A stretch of 64,000 nucleotides of DNA, from positions 186,001 through 250,000 of the forward strand of contig JAMXLO010000141.1 of the NCBI GenBank assembly GCA_024280945.1, read 5' to 3'. The notes beneath the pieces are model-generated. The model worked only from the letters and a program-made list of their open reading frames with translations, had not been told where the DNA came from and searched no databases. Of the stretch, positions 2,636-53,321 are shown piece after piece. This DNA is from Acetobacteraceae bacterium (GTDB lineage: Bacteria > Pseudomonadota > Alphaproteobacteria > Acetobacterales > Acetobacteraceae). The first letter of the stretch is position 1; each line of letters opens with the position of its first letter. The position numbers were made by a program, and so were the translations under genes.

Positions 2636-3924
<1,289 letters not shown>

Positions 3925-3935
3925 TCATCGTCACG

Positions 3936-4006
3936 GCCGGCCCCGTGCCGGCCATCAGTCGCGGCACTGTGCGGAAACGGATGGCCGGGACAAGCCCGGG
4001 CATGAC
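3936..4006. repeat. intergenic palindromic repeat (REP-like, alphaproteobacterial type)
   Basis: Between eno and the thiolase lie two GC-rich inverted repeats. The first is GGCCGGC-CCCGT-GCCGGCC. The second is the arm pair ATGGCCGGG / CCCGGGCAT around acaag. They are separated by about 30 bases and both end in a GGCCAT or ATGGCC motif, so the whole could fold as two hairpins. Elements of this form (a CATGGCCGGGCTTGTCCCGGCCATCC-like core) are scattered through many alphaproteobacterial genomes. It could terminate or stabilise the thiolase and eno transcripts. I saw no second copy in this window. Confidence 0.55.
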
Positions 4007-4036
4007 TCAGTCGGCCGTGCCGACGGTGAATTTTTT

Positions 4037-5242
4037 CTAAACGCGCTCGATCAACGCCGCGATCCCCTGTCCCACGCCAATGCACATCGTTGCGACCGCC
4101 CGCTTGGCGCCCAGCGTCTCCAGCGCGTTCACCGAGGTCAACGCGAGACGCGCGCCGGACATACCAAGCGGATGCCCAAGCGCGATCGCGCCACCATGCG
4201 GATTCACGTGATCGGCATCATCCGGCAGCCCAAGCTGCCGCGTCACTGCCAGGCCCTGGGCGGCGAACGCTTCATTCAGTTCGATCACATCGATATCACC
4301 GATCTTCAAACCAAGCCGTTCCAACAGCTTCTGCGTTGCCGGTGCAGGCCCAATACCCATGATGCGCGGCGGCACGCCAGCGGTCGCCATCGCCACAACG
4401 CGGGCTCGTGGCGTCAGCCCGTGCCGCTGTGCCGCTGCCTCCGAGGCGATGATCAGTGCAGCCGCCCCGTCGTTCACACCCGAGGCGTTGCCGGCAGTGA
4501 CGGTGCCGCCTTGCTTGCGGAATGGCGCCCGTAACTTCGCCAGCCCCTCCAGCGTGGTGTCGCCCCGCGGATGCTCGTCGCGATCGACCGTGACCGCGCC
4601 TCTGCGGCCCTCGATCACCACCGGCGCTATTTCCCGCGCGAAGTGGCCCTTCTCGTGCGCCGCCTTGCAGCGCATCTGTGAGCGCCAGGCGAATGCGTCC
4701 TGATCAGCGCGTGTCACCTGGAAGTCCTCGGCCACGTTCTCCGCCGTCTCCGGCATCGCATCCACGCCGTACTGCGCCTTCAGCAGCGGATTGATGAAAC
4801 GCCAGCCAATCGTGGTGTCATAGATTTCGGCGGCACGCGAGAAGGCCTCGGTGGCCTTGCCCATGACGAATGGGGCACGAGTCATGCTTTCCACCCCGCC
4901 GGCGATCATCAGCTCGGCATCGCCTGCACGGATCGCGCGGGCGGCTGTACCCACGGCGTCCAGCCCAGATCCGCATAGCCGATTGATCGTCGATCCGGAG
5001 ATGTGCTCCGGCAGCCCTGCCAGCAGGACCGCCATGCGCGCGACATTGCGGTTGTCCTCGCCCGCCTGATTGGCGCAGCCGTAGACGACATCGTCGACCT
5101 GGTCCCAATCCACCGACGGGTTGCGCTCCTTCAGGACCCGGATCGGATGGGCTGCCAGATCGTCCGTACGGACGTCCTTTAAGACACCGCCGTAGCGGCC
5201 GATGGGCGTGCGAACGAAGTCGCAGATATAGGCATCGGCCAT
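4037..5242 (-). CDS. pcaF: acetyl-CoA acyltransferase, 3-oxoadipyl-CoA thiolase type
   Basis: A 401-residue thiolase starting at [13 protein letters not shown] (ATG at 5242). The acylated cysteine is Cys90 in NRLCGSG. The distal signatures are present: [23 protein letters not shown] with the active-site His, and CIGVGQG with the second cysteine. The [17 protein letters not shown] and DTTIGWRF segments are characteristic of PcaF, which splits 3-oxoadipyl-CoA into succinyl-CoA and acetyl-CoA at the end of the beta-ketoadipate pathway. No other pca gene is nearby, so a general degradative thiolase remains possible. It is divergent from the secreted-protein gene at 5370. Confidence 0.85.
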
Positions 5243-5369
5243 GGCGATCCTCCCATTATTGCGCCGCGCTTGGCCTAGGACATCCGGCGGGCTGCGGCAA
5301 GCCGGCAGGGGTGCCGCAATTGTCTCGGATGCATATGCGGACGCGGCGAAACGGGTTACAGGACGCGGA

Positions 5370-5996
5370 ATGCGAACCGCGTTCTGCGCCATCCTTGCAT
5401 CCACCTTGACGACCCTGGGCGGCGCTCCGGCGATGGCCGAGGTTTCGGTCTATTATCATACCGGCAGCTGGGACGCGTTCACCGGCACCGGGACGAACGG
5501 CAAATCGGTCTGCGGCATCGGCAGCACCAATCCCGTTGACAACCACAGCATCTCGATACGCTTCGAGATCGGTGGTGACGTGGTGCAGTTCCAGGCGAAG
5601 AAGCCGACCTGGAACATTCCTCCGAATACGCCGATCTCTATCGTCCTGCAGATTGGCCTGGAATCGCCTTGGAACATGCAGGGCGTGGGCAACGGCCAGA
5701 TGGTCGAGTGGACACTGGAGCGCATGTCGATGCCAATCTTCGATGCACAATTCCGGCGCTCCAGTTCGATGACGGTGACATTCCCGTCGGGCAATGAACC
5801 TCCCTGGACAGTCGCACTGAATGGCTCGACAGCAATCAGCAATGTGTTCGGCCGTTGCGTCACCGACCTGACGCAACGGCTCCAGACGCAACCGGCTCCG
5901 CCCGGCCCGACACAGCCATTCGGTCAGGCACCGCCCGACGCATCCGAAGCGATGCCGCAGGCACCAGCACAACCAAGTGCGGGACGCAGCCCATGA
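5370..5996 (+). CDS. secreted hypothetical protein
   Basis: A 208-residue protein starting at ATG 5370, giving the signal peptide [18 protein letters not shown] ending near APAMA-EV (cleavage after about residue 23). The mature part is rich in beta-type segments with only two cysteines ([14 protein letters not shown]) that could form a disulfide. The last 35 residues are a low-complexity Pro/Gln/Ala tail. I do not recognise a domain. It overlaps the following GFA-family start by four bases (ATGA), so the two are probably translationally coupled. Likely periplasmic. Confidence 0.65.
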
Positions 5997-47082: not shown

Positions 47083-47331
47083 ATGCTGAAGGTCATCGCT
47101 GAGCAGGAGCATTATCTGCTGGTATCCGATGGAAACAGCTTTACCGTGGTCGAGCGGCGTGCCGGCAAGTTTTACCCCTTGCGCAACGGCAGCCGGATCG
47201 GCGTGTGTCTTGATGACGATACTATAGCCGGGTTGATACAAGGCTCCGGCGCATATACTGAACAAGCGGCGCGCAGCCTGCTGGCCGATGTTGCGTCGCA
47301 ATGGCGAGACCTGTTCGAGCATGTCCGCTGA
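47083..47331 (+). CDS. small hypothetical protein upstream of a stress protein
   Basis: An 82-residue protein with GGGGAGG eight bases before the ATG. It begins MLKVIAEQEHYLLVSDGNSFTVVERRAGKFYPL and ends with a helical stretch (AARSLLADVASQWRDLFEHVR). No family is recognised. It overlaps the start of the universal-stress-protein gene by 11 bases, so the two are almost certainly translated from one message. Probably a cytoplasmic partner or regulator of the stress protein; this is inference. Confidence 0.6.
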   Translation: MLKVIAEQEHYLLVSDGNSFTVVERRAGKFYPLRNGSRIGVCLDDDTIAGLIQGSGAYTEQAARSLLADVASQWRDLFEHVR

Positions 47332-48127
47332 GGCACACCGCGGAGTAACGATCCGCAAAATCCTGCTGCCGCTGCAGACCGTCAACACTGCGGAGGCCGT
47401 CTGCTCGGCTGCTGCGCTGACAACTCGCATGTGGGCGGGACACCTGGCGGTGTTGCACGTCGGTTCCAACAAAGATCGTGCGATTTCCCTGCGTGATCTG
47501 GTGACGAGATTGTTGGCACAACACGGGCTTCCGTTCGTCGATGCGGAACCCAATGCCCGGACACCGACCGCCAGCTTCGCCGTGGTTACTGGACAGGAAC
47601 CAGAGATCGTCGCCCAAGAGGCGCGGTTGGCTGATCTCGTCGTCGTGCCGCATCCTGCCAGCGACAAAGAGGTTTCTTCATCTGATGCGCTGCACGCGGT
47701 GCTGTTCGACTCGGCGAAGCCGATAATGATCGCACCAGCGGTCGCCCCGTCGGCCATTGGCCGCAGAATTTGCATCGGCTGGAACGGCACTGCCGAATCC
47801 GCTTCTGCCGTACTGGCAGCGTTGCCTTGGCTGAACCGCGCCGAAGCTATCCGGATCCTTTGGTCAGAGGATTACCAGCGGCGCGGTCCGCTGGCGCCGG
47901 AATTACAGCAGTACCTCGCCATGCACGACATCGCTACGGACCGTGCAGCGTTTGCTGCTGACCAGAACGGGGTGGGCGCGGGGCTTTTGGCAGCTGCCGG
48001 CGACTTCGGCTGCGACCTGCTCGTTATGGGCGCCTATTCTCATTCGCGCCTTCGCCAGTTGTTCCTGGGTGGCGTCACGCGTCATGTACTTGAGCGTGCA
48101 ACGATTCCTGTAATGATGCACCGATAG
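47321..48127 (+). CDS. universal stress protein (tandem Usp)
   Basis: A 268-residue protein with two Usp-like halves. The N-terminal half begins RKILLPLQTVNTAEAV. The C-terminal half starts RRICIGWNGTAESASAVLAALPWL and ends with the ATP-binding signature DLLVMGAYSHSRLRQLFLGGVTRHVLERATIPVMMH (G-x2-G-x9-G-S/T form). The start is ATG 47321, inside the preceding gene. Usp proteins respond to starvation, oxidants and low oxygen. A hairpin at 48159 ends this operon. Confidence 0.87.
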   Translation: MSAEAHRGVTIRKILLPLQTVNTAEAVCSAAALTTRMWAGHLAVLHVGSNKDRAISLRDLVTRLLAQHGLPFVDAEPNARTPTASFAVVTGQEPEIVAQEARLADLVVVPHPASDKEVSSSDALHAVLFDSAKPIMIAPAVAPSAIGRRICIGWNGTAESASAVLAALPWLNRAEAIRILWSEDYQRRGPLAPELQQYLAMHDIATDRAAFAADQNGVGAGLLAAAGDFGCDLLVMGAYSHSRLRQLFLGGVTRHVLERATIPVMMHR

Positions 48128-48198: not shown

Positions 48199-49299
48199 CT
48201 ACAGATTGGCCTGGAAGTCCTGGTAGTCGCGAACCTTCTTGTACACTTGCAGCCGGTTCCGCTGGCTGTCGGCCACAATGATCTCGTCCGTCGCCGGATT
48301 GAAATCGACCGCGGTTGGGAAGCAGAACCGCCACAGCGGTTGCAGGTTATTGACCCGTCGATACGCCTTCATCATGTCCGGGTTGGCGTCGACGCTCTGC
48401 TTGGCCCATTTCGAGAACACGTGCGCGTCGCCATACAGGTTGGTCAGCGGGGTCCCGTCGGCCTCGAAGATGCTGACCCGATGATTGCCCCAGTCGGTGA
48501 CGTAGATGTCACCGTCCGTGTCCACCGCCACATCGGTCGGATGATTGAGCAGCCCGGCCTTCGGGTAGTGTGACTCCGGCAGACTGGAGACGTACGGCCC
48601 GAGATAGGTCACGGCGTAAGCGTCATCCGGATGCGGCAGTTCGCCATACGTGCCGATCTTCATCAGGAACTTGCCCTGCGCCGACAGCTTCTGCACGCGA
48701 TGGTTCTTCCAGTCGGCAACGTAGATGTTGCCGTCCTTGTCGGTGGTGATGCCCCACGGCTGGTTGAACTCGCCGTCGCCGGTGCCAGCCTTGCCGCACT
48801 GCGCGACAAGCTTGCCTTCCGGAGTGAACACCTGCAGGCGACAGTTACCGCTGTCGACCACGATAACGTTGCCATTCTTCTCGACCGCGATCCCGGCCGG
48901 ACGTATCAGCTCACCATCGCCGCTGCCGGTCTTGCCGAACTTGTACTGGAACTTCCCGTTCGGATCGAACACCGAGATGGTGTTGGTCCACTCGTCCGAG
49001 CAGAAGACCCGGCCATCCTTGCCGACTGCGACGCCGAATGGCCAGGTCGCCTTGCCGTCGCCTTCGCCGTGCTGGAAGAACTCGGCCATCAGTTCTTCCT
49101 CGCCCGCTCCGCCCAACTGGATGCGGTTCACCCGCATGCCGAAGTTGTTCTCATTGCCGCGGTTGGCAGTGTAGAGGTCGTTATCATTGCCCAGGCACAT
49201 CGTCTGGATATAGTTGAAGCCCGTACCTGTGGCCGCACCGCGCCCGATGGCATGGCTCCAGTCATAGGCCCTGCCGCGAACAACCGTCGTAAGCGCCAT
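48199..49299 (-). CDS. NHL-repeat beta-propeller protein
   Basis: A 366-residue protein built of NHL repeats, each with a G-x-I-Y-V-x-D type core: VFCSDEWTNTISVF, NVIVVDSGNCRLQVF, NIYVADWKNHRVQKL, DIYVTDWGNHRVSIF and EIIVADSQRNRLQVY, plus an N-terminal blade. This would form a six-bladed propeller used for ligand or protein binding. No signal peptide or membrane segment is seen, in contrast to many NHL sensors. It is the third gene of an operon with DUF1501 and DUF1800 proteins; a strong hairpin separates it from the second. Enzymatic function cannot be assigned. Confidence 0.82.
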   Translation of the reverse strand: MALTTVVRGRAYDWSHAIGRGAATGTGFNYIQTMCLGNDNDLYTANRGNENNFGMRVNRIQLGGAGEEELMAEFFQHGEGDGKATWPFGVAVGKDGRVFCSDEWTNTISVFDPNGKFQYKFGKTGSGDGELIRPAGIAVEKNGNVIVVDSGNCRLQVFTPEGKLVAQCGKAGTGDGEFNQPWGITTDKDGNIYVADWKNHRVQKLSAQGKFLMKIGTYGELPHPDDAYAVTYLGPYVSSLPESHYPKAGLLNHPTDVAVDTDGDIYVTDWGNHRVSIFEADGTPLTNLYGDAHVFSKWAKQSVDANPDMMKAYRRVNNLQPLWRFCFPTAVDFNPATDEIIVADSQRNRLQVYKKVRDYQDFQANL

Positions 49300-49329
49300 A
49301 ATTTCCTCCCGTCACATCGCAAGATCACG

Positions 49330-49358
49330 CCCCTCCCGTTCGATCGGAACGGGAGGGG
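49330..49358 (-). promoter_or_regulatory. intercistronic hairpin in the DUF1501-NHL gap
   Basis: A 12-base-pair perfect stem, CCCCTCCCGTTC / GAACGGGAGGGG, around a five-base loop, lies in the 73-base gap between the DUF1501 stop and the NHL start. No T-rich run follows on the minus strand, so a processing or stability element, or attenuation point, is more likely than a plain terminator. It would let the NHL gene be expressed at a different level from its neighbours. Confidence 0.5.
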
Positions 49359-49372
49359 TAGTCATCGGCCAG

Positions 49373-50512
49373 CTAGTGCAGGAAGGCCGGCTTCTCATAG
49401 GTGCCATTCACGATCGGGGCAGGGTTCAAACCGAGCCACTTGTCGAGAATGGTCGAGTAGATGCTGCGGAAGTCCATGCTCGGGTTCAGGTCACCCTGCA
49501 CGAGCTTGTTCGCGTCCAGTGACGGATATTCGCCGTAATGTCCGCCCTTCACCTTCTCACCGAGCACAAACGTCGCGCCGGCGGCGCCGTGGTCGGTGCC
49601 GGAGCCATTGTCGCGCACGCGACGGCCGAACTCCGAGAACATCAGCACGATGACGTTGTCGGCCGCGTTGTGCTGACGCAGGTCGGTCATGAAGGCATCC
49701 AGGCCTTCGGTGACCGCAGTCCACAGACCGGCATGCAGCGGCGCCTGGCCGGCATGCGAGTCAAAGCTGCCATGGTCGCAGTAGAAGATGCGGGTGCCGA
49801 GGTTGGCGAGATGCACCTGGGCGACGCCGCGGAGCTTCTGCGCGATCGTGGTGTTGGGATACTTCACGTCGGACTTGTACATGCCCGGCGCGACCTTCAG
49901 GATGTCGGCGCCCTTCAGCCCATCGAGGCCGGTGGTGCCGAGGTAGTCCATCACCCCGCTGCCTTCGATCGGCTGGTACATGTGCGCGAAGGTCTCGAGC
50001 ACCTTCAGACGCTGTGCCTGGTCACGGATGCTGGGCAGGAACCCGTATTGCTCCAGCGGACCAGCCACGCAGGCGACCGGAACGTTGGGCACCGACATCG
50101 CGCGGAACATGCATGGGCCGAAGCTCACGGCGGTGACGACGTTCTCCTTCTTCGGATCGAACTCGCGCACCACACGGCCCAGCCAGCCTTCGGTGCCGAC
50201 CTTCTCGGCCTCGCAGGTGTGCCAGATGTCCATGGAGCGGAAATGCGACCGCGGCGAGTCGAGATAGCCGACGCCATGCATGATGGCGAGCTTGTCGTCA
50301 TCCCAGAACTTCTTCAGCGGCGCCATGTAGTTCGGCATGGCGTGCGCCTGATCGAGGTGGATCATGTCGCTGTCGGCGATGCCGACCGCCTTGCGATTGT
50401 CCTTGTACAGGCCGTTGTTGTACGGGATTACCGTGTTCAGGTAGTCGTTGCCGCCGGTGAGCTGCAACACGACCAGCACCGGATCCTTCGATTGCTGTGT
50501 TGTTGCCGACAT
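49373..50512 (-). CDS. DUF1501 protein (alkaline-phosphatase-like fold)
   Basis: A 379-residue DUF1501 protein. Marks are VLVVLQLTGGNDYLNTVIPYNN near the start, MHGVGYLDSPRSHFRSMDIWHTCE, and the C-terminal VIVLMFSEFGRRVRDNGSGTDHGAAGATFVLG. DUF1501 members belong to the alkaline-phosphatase/sulfatase superfamily and are usually exported by Tat beside a DUF1800 partner. Here the N-terminus has no twin-Arg signal, so export is not evident. Nearly all lysine codons are AAG and most third bases are G or C, a sign of strong expression. Second gene of the operon. Confidence 0.88.
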   Translation of the reverse strand: MSATTQQSKDPVLVVLQLTGGNDYLNTVIPYNNGLYKDNRKAVGIADSDMIHLDQAHAMPNYMAPLKKFWDDDKLAIMHGVGYLDSPRSHFRSMDIWHTCEAEKVGTEGWLGRVVREFDPKKENVVTAVSFGPCMFRAMSVPNVPVACVAGPLEQYGFLPSIRDQAQRLKVLETFAHMYQPIEGSGVMDYLGTTGLDGLKGADILKVAPGMYKSDVKYPNTTIAQKLRGVAQVHLANLGTRIFYCDHGSFDSHAGQAPLHAGLWTAVTEGLDAFMTDLRQHNAADNVIVLMFSEFGRRVRDNGSGTDHGAAGATFVLGEKVKGGHYGEYPSLDANKLVQGDLNPSMDFRSIYSTILDKWLGLNPAPIVNGTYEKPAFLH

Positions 50513-50548
50513 GGTGGTGAGTTCCTCCTATCCGTTCCGTGTCATGTT

Positions 50549-51955
50549 TCAGCCGAACTGGTATTCGCGCGTCGCCGCGATGAGTTGGAGCATCTCGGCG
50601 GCACGCTGAGTGGCGTTCTTCGCGCCGGCATCGTTGTCCCAGCTGATGTCGCCCCACTGCTTCGCCGCCTCGGTGAGCTCCTTCTTGGTGTCAGCACCCA
50701 CCTCGACCGGGCCGAGCAGATCGAGGCAGTTGGCGACGAGCTGTTCAGGGGTCTTGGTGCCCTGCGCCTTCAGGCGGTTGATGATCGCCTGAACGCCGGG
50801 CAGATCAGGATTGCCGATCTGCGCCGCGACGAAATTGATGCGCGACATCAATGAGCCGCTGTTGATCCACTCCTGGCCGGTGTGCCAGCCCTCGACCGAG
50901 GGTGGGTTCAGCAGATCCTGGCCCATGTAGGACGGCTGCATCGACAGTTCGCCGTAACCCGGCTTCGGCAGCTCGTAGCCACCGACCAGGCGCAGCGTGC
51001 CCACCACCACTTCGGCCGGCGACTTCAGGTGCTTGTAGCGGGCATTCTTGAAGAAGTCCGACTTGAACAGGTGGTTCAGCAGCGGCTTCATCTCGCACTT
51101 CGATTCAATGAACACTTTGCACATCGAATCGATTGCTGCCTGATCGCGTGGTGCCTCGATCTGCCAGGCAGGCACCTGCGGTTCGTCGGCGACGAAGAAG
51201 TTGTACAGATGCCGGCAGATGAACTTCGCGCAGGCCGGTTGCTGCACGATGATGTTGATGATGTCCTCGCCGTTGAAGTTGCCCTTGTGGCCGAGGAAGG
51301 TCTTCTCGCCATCGTCGTGGTCTTCTGGCCGATACTCGAACTTCCATGGGAAGCGGCCGTACGGCAAGCGAGGCAATTTGGTTTCGAAGGTCCAGCCGGT
51401 GAAGGCGCGCGACGCCTCGCGAACGTCCACCTCGGTGTAGTTGCTGGCGCCAAGGCTGAACAGTTCCAGCAGCTCGCGGCCCCAGTTCTCGTTGACCGCC
51501 GTGCCGTGGTTCTGGTTGTTGTCCAGCCAGAAGATCATGGTCGGGTTCTTCGCCACCTTCAGCAGCAGGTCGCGATAGTTGCCCATGCCGTGCTGACGGA
51601 ACAATTCGATCTGCTCCAGCAGCTGGTCGTAGTTGTCGACCTTCGAGTTGCCGGTGGCGAACACGTGGTGCCAGAACAGCGCCATCTTCTCCTGCAGCGG
51701 GCGCTTCGTATTCACCAGGTAGTACATGTAGTTCACGTTGCCCATCGGCGGCTGCCCGCCCGGCAGCAACGCGGCCGGTTGATGCCGCAGCAGCGTGTAC
51801 GGATCGACTGCTGGCTGCGCTTCCGGGCTCAGCAACTCGTCGACCGTTGCGTCGTATCCTTTGGCCGCCCGCGCCTCGAGCTCGTCCCGGCTGGCGCCAA
51901 AGCCTGCCCGGCGCATCAGGTGGGCCATCAATCCGATGTCGTCTTTACTTGCCAT
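50549..51955 (-). CDS. DUF1800 protein
   Basis: A 468-residue DUF1800 protein. The N-terminus (IGLMAHLMRRAGFGASRDELEA), KMALFWHHVFATGNSKV, ENWGRELLELFSLGASNYTEVDVREASRAFTGW and the C-terminal NPPSVEGWHTGQEWINSGSLMSRINF are diagnostic. DUF1800 almost always pairs with DUF1501; their joint activity is not established. No signal peptide or Tat motif is visible. It is the first gene of the operon, with its promoter presumably in the 367 bases shared with oxyR. Confidence 0.9.
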   Translation of the reverse strand: MASKDDIGLMAHLMRRAGFGASRDELEARAAKGYDATVDELLSPEAQPAVDPYTLLRHQPAALLPGGQPPMGNVNYMYYLVNTKRPLQEKMALFWHHVFATGNSKVDNYDQLLEQIELFRQHGMGNYRDLLLKVAKNPTMIFWLDNNQNHGTAVNENWGRELLELFSLGASNYTEVDVREASRAFTGWTFETKLPRLPYGRFPWKFEYRPEDHDDGEKTFLGHKGNFNGEDIINIIVQQPACAKFICRHLYNFFVADEPQVPAWQIEAPRDQAAIDSMCKVFIESKCEMKPLLNHLFKSDFFKNARYKHLKSPAEVVVGTLRLVGGYELPKPGYGELSMQPSYMGQDLLNPPSVEGWHTGQEWINSGSLMSRINFVAAQIGNPDLPGVQAIINRLKAQGTKTPEQLVANCLDLLGPVEVGADTKKELTEAAKQWGDISWDNDAGAKNATQRAAEMLQLIAATREYQFG

Positions 51956-52322
51956 TGTTGATCCTCCCGAATTCCAGCACTAACCAAACGGATGTCGCTC
52001 GCAAGAGCGAGACTACCACAACGGGCGAATTCATCCAGGGTCGTCGACCAGCATGCCAATGCGTGGCGCACGGAGCAACATCTGCTCGACGCCGGTGCCT
52101 TGGCTCTGCGGCCAGTCGGATGGCGCCCTGCCTCCCGCCAAGAGTGGCGCCCGGTCAATCCGCATGAACAAGTTGGGCCACGTCATAACGCGAGCCCTTT
52201 TTGGCCAATCAGGCCAAGCCGACCCTGGGATCATAAGATAGCCTTGCCAGCGCGGGTCTATTTGTCCAATCTAAATATGCAATTTCATAAATAGGCAGCA
52301 CCAATAGGAGGGGAGGATCGCT
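51956..52322. other. DUF1800-oxyR divergent intergenic region
   Basis: 367 bases with no credible gene. The half near oxyR is AT-rich, and an ATTT-N9-AAAT inverted repeat at 52260-52276 has the shape of a LysR-type site (T-N11-A). Direct matches to the four-block ATAG/CTAT OxyR consensus were not found. It should hold both promoters. An AGGAGG-type ribosome site precedes oxyR. Confidence 0.4.
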
Positions 52323-53321
52323 ATGACGTTGGCCGAGTTGCGGTATCTGGTCGCGGTTGCCGATCTATCCCACTTCGGCCGGGCGGCGGAGCGGTGCCGG
52401 GTGACGCAGCCGACACTCAGCAGTCAGTTGCGGAAACTGGAGGAGCAGCTCGGCGTACCTCTGGTCGAACGAACGACCCGGTTCGTCACCCTCACGCCGA
52501 TCGGCAAGGCCGTCGTCGCACATGCGCGCCGTATACTCGAGGAAGCCGACCAAATCTCGGAATTGGTGCGTCACCGCCACGGCACGCTCACCAGCATCCT
52601 TCGCCTCGGCATTATCCCGACATTGAGCCCGTACATCCTGCCGCTGATCCTTGAACAGCTGCATCAGAGGTTTCCCGCGCTTCGACTGGTGCTTCGGGAA
52701 GATCTGACAGCGAACCTCATGGCCGCACTGGACGGGTATGCACTCGACGTCGTGCTGATCGCCTTGCCCGAGCACACCGAAGGCTATCGGGCGATGCCTC
52801 TATTCCTCGAACCATTCTGCTTTGCCTGTGCCCCCGGGCACCCGCTGAGCAATCAGCCAGTCGTCACGGAGCGTGAACTCAAGCGCGAATGCCTGCTTTT
52901 GCTCGACGAAGGACACTGCCTGCGCGATCAGGCGCTGGAAGTCTGTGGCGAGAAATTCAGCAGTGGGATAGGTCCAAGCGACGATTTTCGGGCAACCAGC
53001 CTGGAGACGATTTCTGAGATGGTGGCGGCAGGCCTCGGTTGCACGCTGCTGCCCGCGATGGCTGTGCCGCATCTGACAGCCCGGCATAAGCAGCTGGAGG
53101 TGAGGCCGCTGATCGCCACCAAGGCGCATCGGCGCATAGGCCTGCTTTGGCGAACGAGCTTTCCTCAGGCTGACGACCTGGAGGAATTCGGCAGGCTCAT
53201 CCTTGGTCAGTTGCCCGACTGCGTTGACGTGGTTGACACACCATGCAGCCCCGCGCCGACGCCGCGCCGTCCTGGCTCAAAGCCCGTGGCGCGGTTGCGG
53301 TCCAGCGAAGCAGCACGCTGA
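52323..53321 (+). CDS. oxyR: hydrogen peroxide sensor and transcriptional activator OxyR
   Basis: A 332-residue LysR-family regulator. The winged helix is LRYLVAVADLSHFGRAAERCRVTQPTLSSQLRKLEEQLG. The sensing loop is LLLLDEGHCLRDQALEVC, where the two cysteines fall at residues 199 and 208, the same numbers as in E. coli OxyR, where they form a disulfide on oxidation. The following segment DDFRATSLETISEMVAAGLGCTLLPAMAV is also OxyR-specific. The protein activates catalase, peroxiredoxin and similar genes. It is divergent from the DUF1800-DUF1501-NHL operon, none of which is a known OxyR target. Confidence 0.94.
   Translation: MTLAELRYLVAVADLSHFGRAAERCRVTQPTLSSQLRKLEEQLGVPLVERTTRFVTLTPIGKAVVAHARRILEEADQISELVRHRHGTLTSILRLGIIPTLSPYILPLILEQLHQRFPALRLVLREDLTANLMAALDGYALDVVLIALPEHTEGYRAMPLFLEPFCFACAPGHPLSNQPVVTERELKRECLLLLDEGHCLRDQALEVCGEKFSSGIGPSDDFRATSLETISEMVAAGLGCTLLPAMAVPHLTARHKQLEVRPLIATKAHRRIGLLWRTSFPQADDLEEFGRLILGQLPDCVDVVDTPCSPAPTPRRPGSKPVARLRSSEAAR

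Follow-up and report, generated by a model that had tools for sequence, protein, structure and literature searches.

A leaderless DUF1800-DUF1501-NHL operon lies beside different peroxide and iron sensors in different bacterial lineages

The operon that diverges from oxyR in the DNA analysed here (64,000 nucleotides from an Acetobacteraceae bacterium, hereafter the window) is probably a cytoplasmic peroxide/iron-stress module that has been captured by different sensors. A peroxide or iron sensor adjoins the module in 16 of the 18 loci whose surroundings could be read, a count that leaves out L003, L004 and L008, which lie at contig ends. The type of sensor differs by lineage: OxyR in two loci (the window and L002, both divergent), Irr in nine (L005, L006, L009, L010, L069, L070, L071, L109 and L110) and a PerR-like protein in five. 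The presence of different peroxide or iron sensors beside the same module in unrelated bacteria suggests that this is a stress-defence module. Loci of one lineage share ancestry and the 16 are not 16 independent events; about five regulator-module arrangements appear independent, namely OxyR, irr followed by the module, the module followed by irr, and two PerR-like subfamilies. The features of the window are as follows.

48199 to 49299, minus strand: NHL beta-propeller protein, 366 aa, third gene of the operon (open reading frame; PF01436; orthologues 66-90% identical)
49330 to 49358, minus strand: intercistronic 12-bp GC-rich hairpin between the DUF1501 and NHL genes, with no T-run (fold z -2.5)
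49373 to 50512, minus strand: leaderless DUF1501 protein, 379 aa, second gene (open reading frame; PF07394; alignment)
50549 to 51955, minus strand: leaderless DUF1800 protein, 468 aa, first gene (open reading frame; PF08811; orthologues 78-91% identical)
52259 to 52275, minus strand: conserved -35-like block TTTAGATTGGACAAATA (as read on the operon strand; TTTGACA in relatives), abutting the OxyR box
52269 to 52305, no strand assigned: predicted OxyR box, ATCT-N7-CAAT-N7-ATAG-N7-CAAT, 12 of 16 positions matching the consensus
52323 to 53321, plus strand: OxyR, 332 aa, with Cys199 and Cys208 (Pfam LysR domains, cysteine positions)

A preliminary description of this DNA had proposed the divergent operon, and it was borne out: every reading frame was found where it had been placed, with the three operon genes on the minus strand and their Pfam scores above the curated cut-offs. 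DUF1800 matched PF08811 over its full length (342.2 bits against a gathering cut-off of 26.1), DUF1501 matched PF07394 in its C-terminal part only (84.6 against 27), and the third protein matched PF01436 in four stretches (143.9 against 20), its Pfam and PDB matches identifying it as an NHL propeller. The addition of a propeller to the DUF1800/DUF1501 pair was likewise confirmed, and this subunit is common to the whole clade. The genes are separated by 36 and 73 bp and each start is preceded by a GGAGG-like site. The strong codon bias that had been noted was also recovered, the three genes taking ranks 1, 2 and 4 by GC3 among the window's 40 ORFs of 200 aa or more. The window genome (6.42 Mb in 156 contigs) contains a single DUF1800 match and a single DUF1501 match; a distant, ordinary DUF1501 is additionally present in all nine other module genomes checked. 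A universal-stress-protein gene (window 47288-48127, plus strand) is convergent with the NHL gene.

The DUF1501 and DUF1800 families are widespread, and no assigned function or solved structure for either was found in the library searched. The pair is usually exported, as the preliminary description had stated: among the ordinary DUF1501 proteins, a twin-arginine leader was seen by eye at each of the 16 distinct loci whose N-terminus could be read, excluding two rows that start mid-protein and three repeats. In the window, all three proteins begin directly at the conserved domain and carry no N-terminal Tat or Sec leader. A longer start or a missed leader was ruled out, since no in-frame upstream start supplies one; the open frames of DUF1800 and DUF1501 (476 and 384 aa) add only a few codons before the starts. 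The homologues in 20 further genomes are leaderless too wherever the N-terminus is readable, and the DUF1501 proteins of this clade start at the first conserved strand. The absence of export signals claimed earlier therefore holds, for the clade as well as for the window. Homologues with normal export signals, which had been named as evidence against a cytoplasmic version, do exist, but only as distant relatives of 26-37% identity; none was found within the module clade. Cysteine content follows the same division: DUF1501 has 3-6 cysteines in the leaderless clade versus 0-1 in exported relatives, and DUF1800 has 3-5 versus 0-1 in most leader-bearing relatives, the one exported DUF1800 with five cysteines having a translation that probably starts too early. 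A raised cysteine content together with a leaderless start fits a cytoplasmic protein, and the predicted cytoplasmic location of the three proteins, common to the whole clade, is well supported by these features. The trio could still be exported, with the help of a leader-bearing partner or non-classically, to an envelope role like that of the ordinary pair, and the invariant DUF1501 residues common to the exported relatives would agree with that; the absence of a leader from every readable homologue when all readable exported relatives have one, and the raised cysteine content, make export highly improbable.

The leaderless operon shares with ordinary DUF1800-DUF1501 operons (PF08811/PF07394, COG5267/COG4102) the same two families, adjacent and in the same order, and the invariant DUF1501 motifs GGND, FDxH, EFGRR and GTDHG, which most ordinary members retain. 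The ordinary pair differs in its low identity, in the Tat leaders on DUF1501, in having few or no cysteines, and in the absence of an oxidative-stress regulator from the flanks examined; no OxyR, Irr, PerR, rubrerythrin or peroxiredoxin homologue was found at 26 ordinary DUF1501/DUF1800 loci, mostly with flanks of only 1.5 kb and several repeating one another. An exported pair, with a Tat motif on DUF1501, adjoins bacterial chitin synthases (PMC5122149). For SAR202 Chloroflexota, a correlation matrix of abundances groups COG3391 (a propeller family), COG4102 and COG5267 as uncharacterised families (PMC6946804); the link there is one of abundance correlation only, and the text found describes no operon, leader status or regulator.

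By a scan of genome contigs and by genome searches, close relatives of the module were found in the 20 further genomes with identities of 66-94% (DUF1501 69-94%, DUF1800 78-91%, NHL 66-90%), the three genes being adjacent at every locus where the contig permits. The comparison loci come mostly from metagenome assemblies. In the DUF1501 tree the close relatives lie apart from the leader-bearing ones, save for one very long branch whose placement is unsure, and judged by sequence the module is a distinct leaderless clade. Its distribution is patchy, covering Acetobacteraceae, two other alphaproteobacterial orders and Rokubacteria: it is present in 10 of 43 genomes of the order of G1099 (two of them via contig-end fragments only), in 1 of 298 genomes searched of the third order, and in 6 of 95 Rokubacteria. 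Because identity between phyla is so high, this suggests horizontal transfer of the module between phyla. Plasmid searches returned only distant relatives, below 60% identity, and viral contigs a single 34% relative. As separate observations, locus L041 (genome G268, 3305-5487) carries a leaderless DUF1501 (48% identical; 48-49% as a relative of the module) beside an NHL protein (29%), with DUF1800 absent from its 5.6-kb contig, which is low in GC3 and possibly foreign to an assembly assigned to the same class; in one Rokubacteria locus (L007 6609-7948) DUF1800 is split by a frameshift, which may be an assembly error or real.

The regulator that shares the promoter region with the window operon is, as had been proposed, OxyR-like. 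Its LysR domains were matched by Pfam, the peroxidatic Cys199 and the resolving Cys208 are both present, and the NCBIfam equivalog NF008361 was the best of all models, yet at 257.5 bits, below its cut-off of 329. With a consensus taken from PMC5720770, the predicted OxyR box was the only site scoring at least 12 of 16 in the 64-kb window (shuffle P 0.0045); ahpC of P. aeruginosa scores 12 in the table of that paper. The homologous position scores 14 of 16 in L111 and 11 of 16 in L002, the latter weak (P 0.027), and no OxyR box was found upstream of the module in L045, L003 or L004. The TTGACA-like block on the operon strand abuts the box in the window, L002 and L111, and is thus also shared with an oxyR-ferritin locus. 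In L111 (6153-7932), from an Acetobacteraceae genome lacking the module, an OxyR orthologue (66%) is divergent from a ferritin-like (PF00210) gene. The window genome has a second OxyR-like gene (G000 C88:47581-48558; L032, L048 7558-8505), 40% identical, with both OxyR cysteines and a TAG interruption near its end.

This arrangement resembles OxyR regulons with divergent targets in having a divergent gene, a predicted box between the two genes and the OxyR cysteines, and in that the orthologous OxyR faces a ferritin-like gene. It differs in that the predicted target would be neither catalase nor AhpC nor Dps but an uncharacterised module, and in the long distance between the box and the first operon gene, with oxyR 18-54 bp away and the DUF1800 start 314 bp away. 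No consensus sigma-70 promoter was found in a scan between the box and DUF1800, and no -10 element of the operon was recognised there. Because of this spacing and the lack of a consensus promoter, the predicted box may serve oxyR autoregulation only. More broadly, the regulators could be neighbours by hitch-hiking or by an insertion-site effect, with a mobile module whose genes are unrelated to peroxide and an OxyR that controls only itself. The proximity of the box to oxyR, the patchy distribution with high identity between phyla, and two loci with readable flanks but no OxyR, Irr or PerR-like regulator beside the module (L045 and L072) are what such hitch-hiking would give.

In the order of G1099, many genomes have an irr locus lacking the module, a conserved cluster of genes for a nitronate-monooxygenase-like protein (NMO), Irr, rubrerythrin, a GlpC-like FeS protein and DUF3501, with Irr-type boxes before rubrerythrin; it was seen whole or in part in L078, L080-L082, L085, L088, L091 and L093-L105. 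All seven Irr proteins scanned scored above the curated cut-off for IrrA, and five of them also above that for Irr. The module is inserted into this Irr-rubrerythrin cluster of alphaproteobacteria, between irr and rubrerythrin in L005 and between NMO and irr in L006 and L069, indicating that it entered on either side of irr. Genome G1102 has kept the bare cluster (L078); at another site it carries the module with an additional copy of irr (L009). An Irr box (AGTTTrGrA...TTCT) directly precedes TTGAC in six module promoters, matching at 11-13 of 14 positions TTTAGAAnnnTTCTAAA, which we take to be the Irr box consensus (P at most 0.002). The box scores 11-14 of 14 upstream of rubrerythrin in relatives of the same order, and these rubrerythrin promoters are the only check on that consensus. 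The papers found do not list the three-gene module among the members of the Irr regulon. In Bradyrhizobium, a rubrerythrin-like gene is under Irr control (PMC3413700).

These observations weigh against mere hitch-hiking, which would have to account for several regulator families, for insertions on both sides of irr, for the boxes that the module promoters themselves carry in the Irr lineage, and for a genome (G1102) in which irr accompanies the module outside the cluster, when no such regulator was found at the 26 ordinary DUF1501/DUF1800 loci, most with flanks of only 1.5 kb; we consider it unlikely. The putative peroxide link, which the preliminary description drew from a single shared promoter region, is strengthened. 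It is supported by OxyR, Irr or PerR-like neighbours according to lineage, by rubrerythrin and peroxiredoxin genes (L002 has a convergent peroxiredoxin in addition to OxyR) and by matching boxes; OxyR itself, however, is beside the module in only two of the four Acetobacteraceae loci, one of the others lacking it and one being cut off.

In Rokubacteria, DUF1800 is immediately preceded, on its own strand, by a PerR-like gene in L007, L073, L074, L075 and L076; the gaps that were measured span 23-85 bp. Among PDB entries, the L076 protein matches B. subtilis PerR 2fe3 best and has all five metal ligands including Asp104, and the PerR metal ligands including Asp104 were recognised by motif in L073-L075; Asp104 is said to distinguish PerR from Fur in a paper that lists the regulatory-metal ligands (PMC4866751). 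The L074 protein belongs to a different subfamily. The perR-module operon is preceded by a Fur/PerR-like inverted repeat in L073 and L076 and by a weaker one in L075; the repeat was not convincing in L007, and the Fur box scan found none in L074. In gene order and in the 2fe3 ligands these loci are like autoregulated PerR peroxide operons, from which they differ in their rokubacterial host and in that the PerR-like proteins score 78-96 bits against NCBIfam PerR, below the cut-offs of 180-200. A gene for a ferredoxin fused to an HbpS-like haem-degrading domain stands beside the perR-module operon in L073 (12149-12811), and similar genes occur in L007, L075 and L076.

The module might instead serve iron or haem homeostasis, not peroxide defence, with a metal-dependent DUF1501 that needs or spares iron. 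Irr is an iron/haem sensor, its linkage is the commonest (nine loci) and module promoters there carry Irr boxes, the rubrerythrin and ferritin-like neighbours are iron-handling proteins, and the ferredoxin-HbpS haem protein adjoins the perR-module operon. Since OxyR and PerR-like sensors respond to peroxide, and a peroxiredoxin is a neighbour in L002, we regard a role in iron or haem alone as distinctly unlikely. In the open-access literature searched, where absence is weak evidence, no paper was found that connects OxyR, Irr or PerR to DUF1501, to DUF1800 or to an NHL-repeat protein.

Returning to the peroxide/iron-stress module, clues to its chemistry come from DUF1501, in whose alignment Asp23, Asp251, His253, Asp307 and His308 are invariant, exported relatives included. 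The AF2 models are of low confidence (pLDDT 44.7 for DUF1501 and 51.3 for DUF1800), because only nine and eight sequences, respectively, were used. Most of the top Foldseek matches of the low-confidence DUF1501 model were ENPP/autotaxin-type phosphodiesterases, non-significant at E of at least 0.25, and no PDB sequence relative of DUF1501 or DUF1800 was found, even with profiles. The invariant residues, the weak fold matches and the presumed alkaline-phosphatase assignment of the DUF1501 family favour a metal-dependent hydrolase with two partners; DUF1501 is probably such an enzyme.

A single logic could connect the three lineages. In the window, OxyR oxidised at Cys199 and Cys208 would bind 52269-52305 between both genes, limiting its own transcription and activating the divergent operon. 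In their own lineages, the same genes would be released by Irr when high iron, haem or peroxide inactivates or degrades it, and by PerR on its inactivation through iron-catalysed oxidation of histidine. Under each regulator, high peroxide, or high peroxide together with iron, would raise transcription; release by Irr or PerR and activation by OxyR would be different wirings of the same logic. The products would form a cytoplasmic complex in which DUF1501 acts as an alkaline-phosphatase-type metal-dependent hydrolase, DUF1800 as its obligate partner and the NHL propeller as a scaffold or substrate platform, and which removes or repairs something made by peroxide or iron stress. The fuller proposal is of a previously undescribed complex of three proteins, built around DUF1501 as a metal hydrolase, whose role would be to detoxify or repair some cell component damaged by peroxide or iron; it would have spread horizontally, with OxyR, Irr and PerR-type sensors each capturing it on their own. 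This proposal is put forward tentatively, as possible rather than probable. A leaderless version tied to peroxide and iron sensors would give a first concrete physiological handle on DUF1501 and DUF1800, and the trio, soluble and probably well expressed, should lend itself better than the exported pair to purification and assay. A further prediction is a new oxidative-stress regulon target in Rokubacteria and other little-studied soil lineages.

The hairpin between the DUF1501 and NHL genes has counterparts in the relatives, where its fold z ranges from -1.3 to -4.0 except in L004. A strong, perfect or near-perfect hairpin with no T-run was seen at most alphaproteobacterial module loci (L002 4329-4421, L003 3154-3250, L005 9117-9256, L006 9138-9242, L045 10433-10506 and L009 9117-9266), and the gap is too short to hold one in most Rokubacteria loci. 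Its sequence differs each time, and it is perhaps an element of mRNA processing or stoichiometry.
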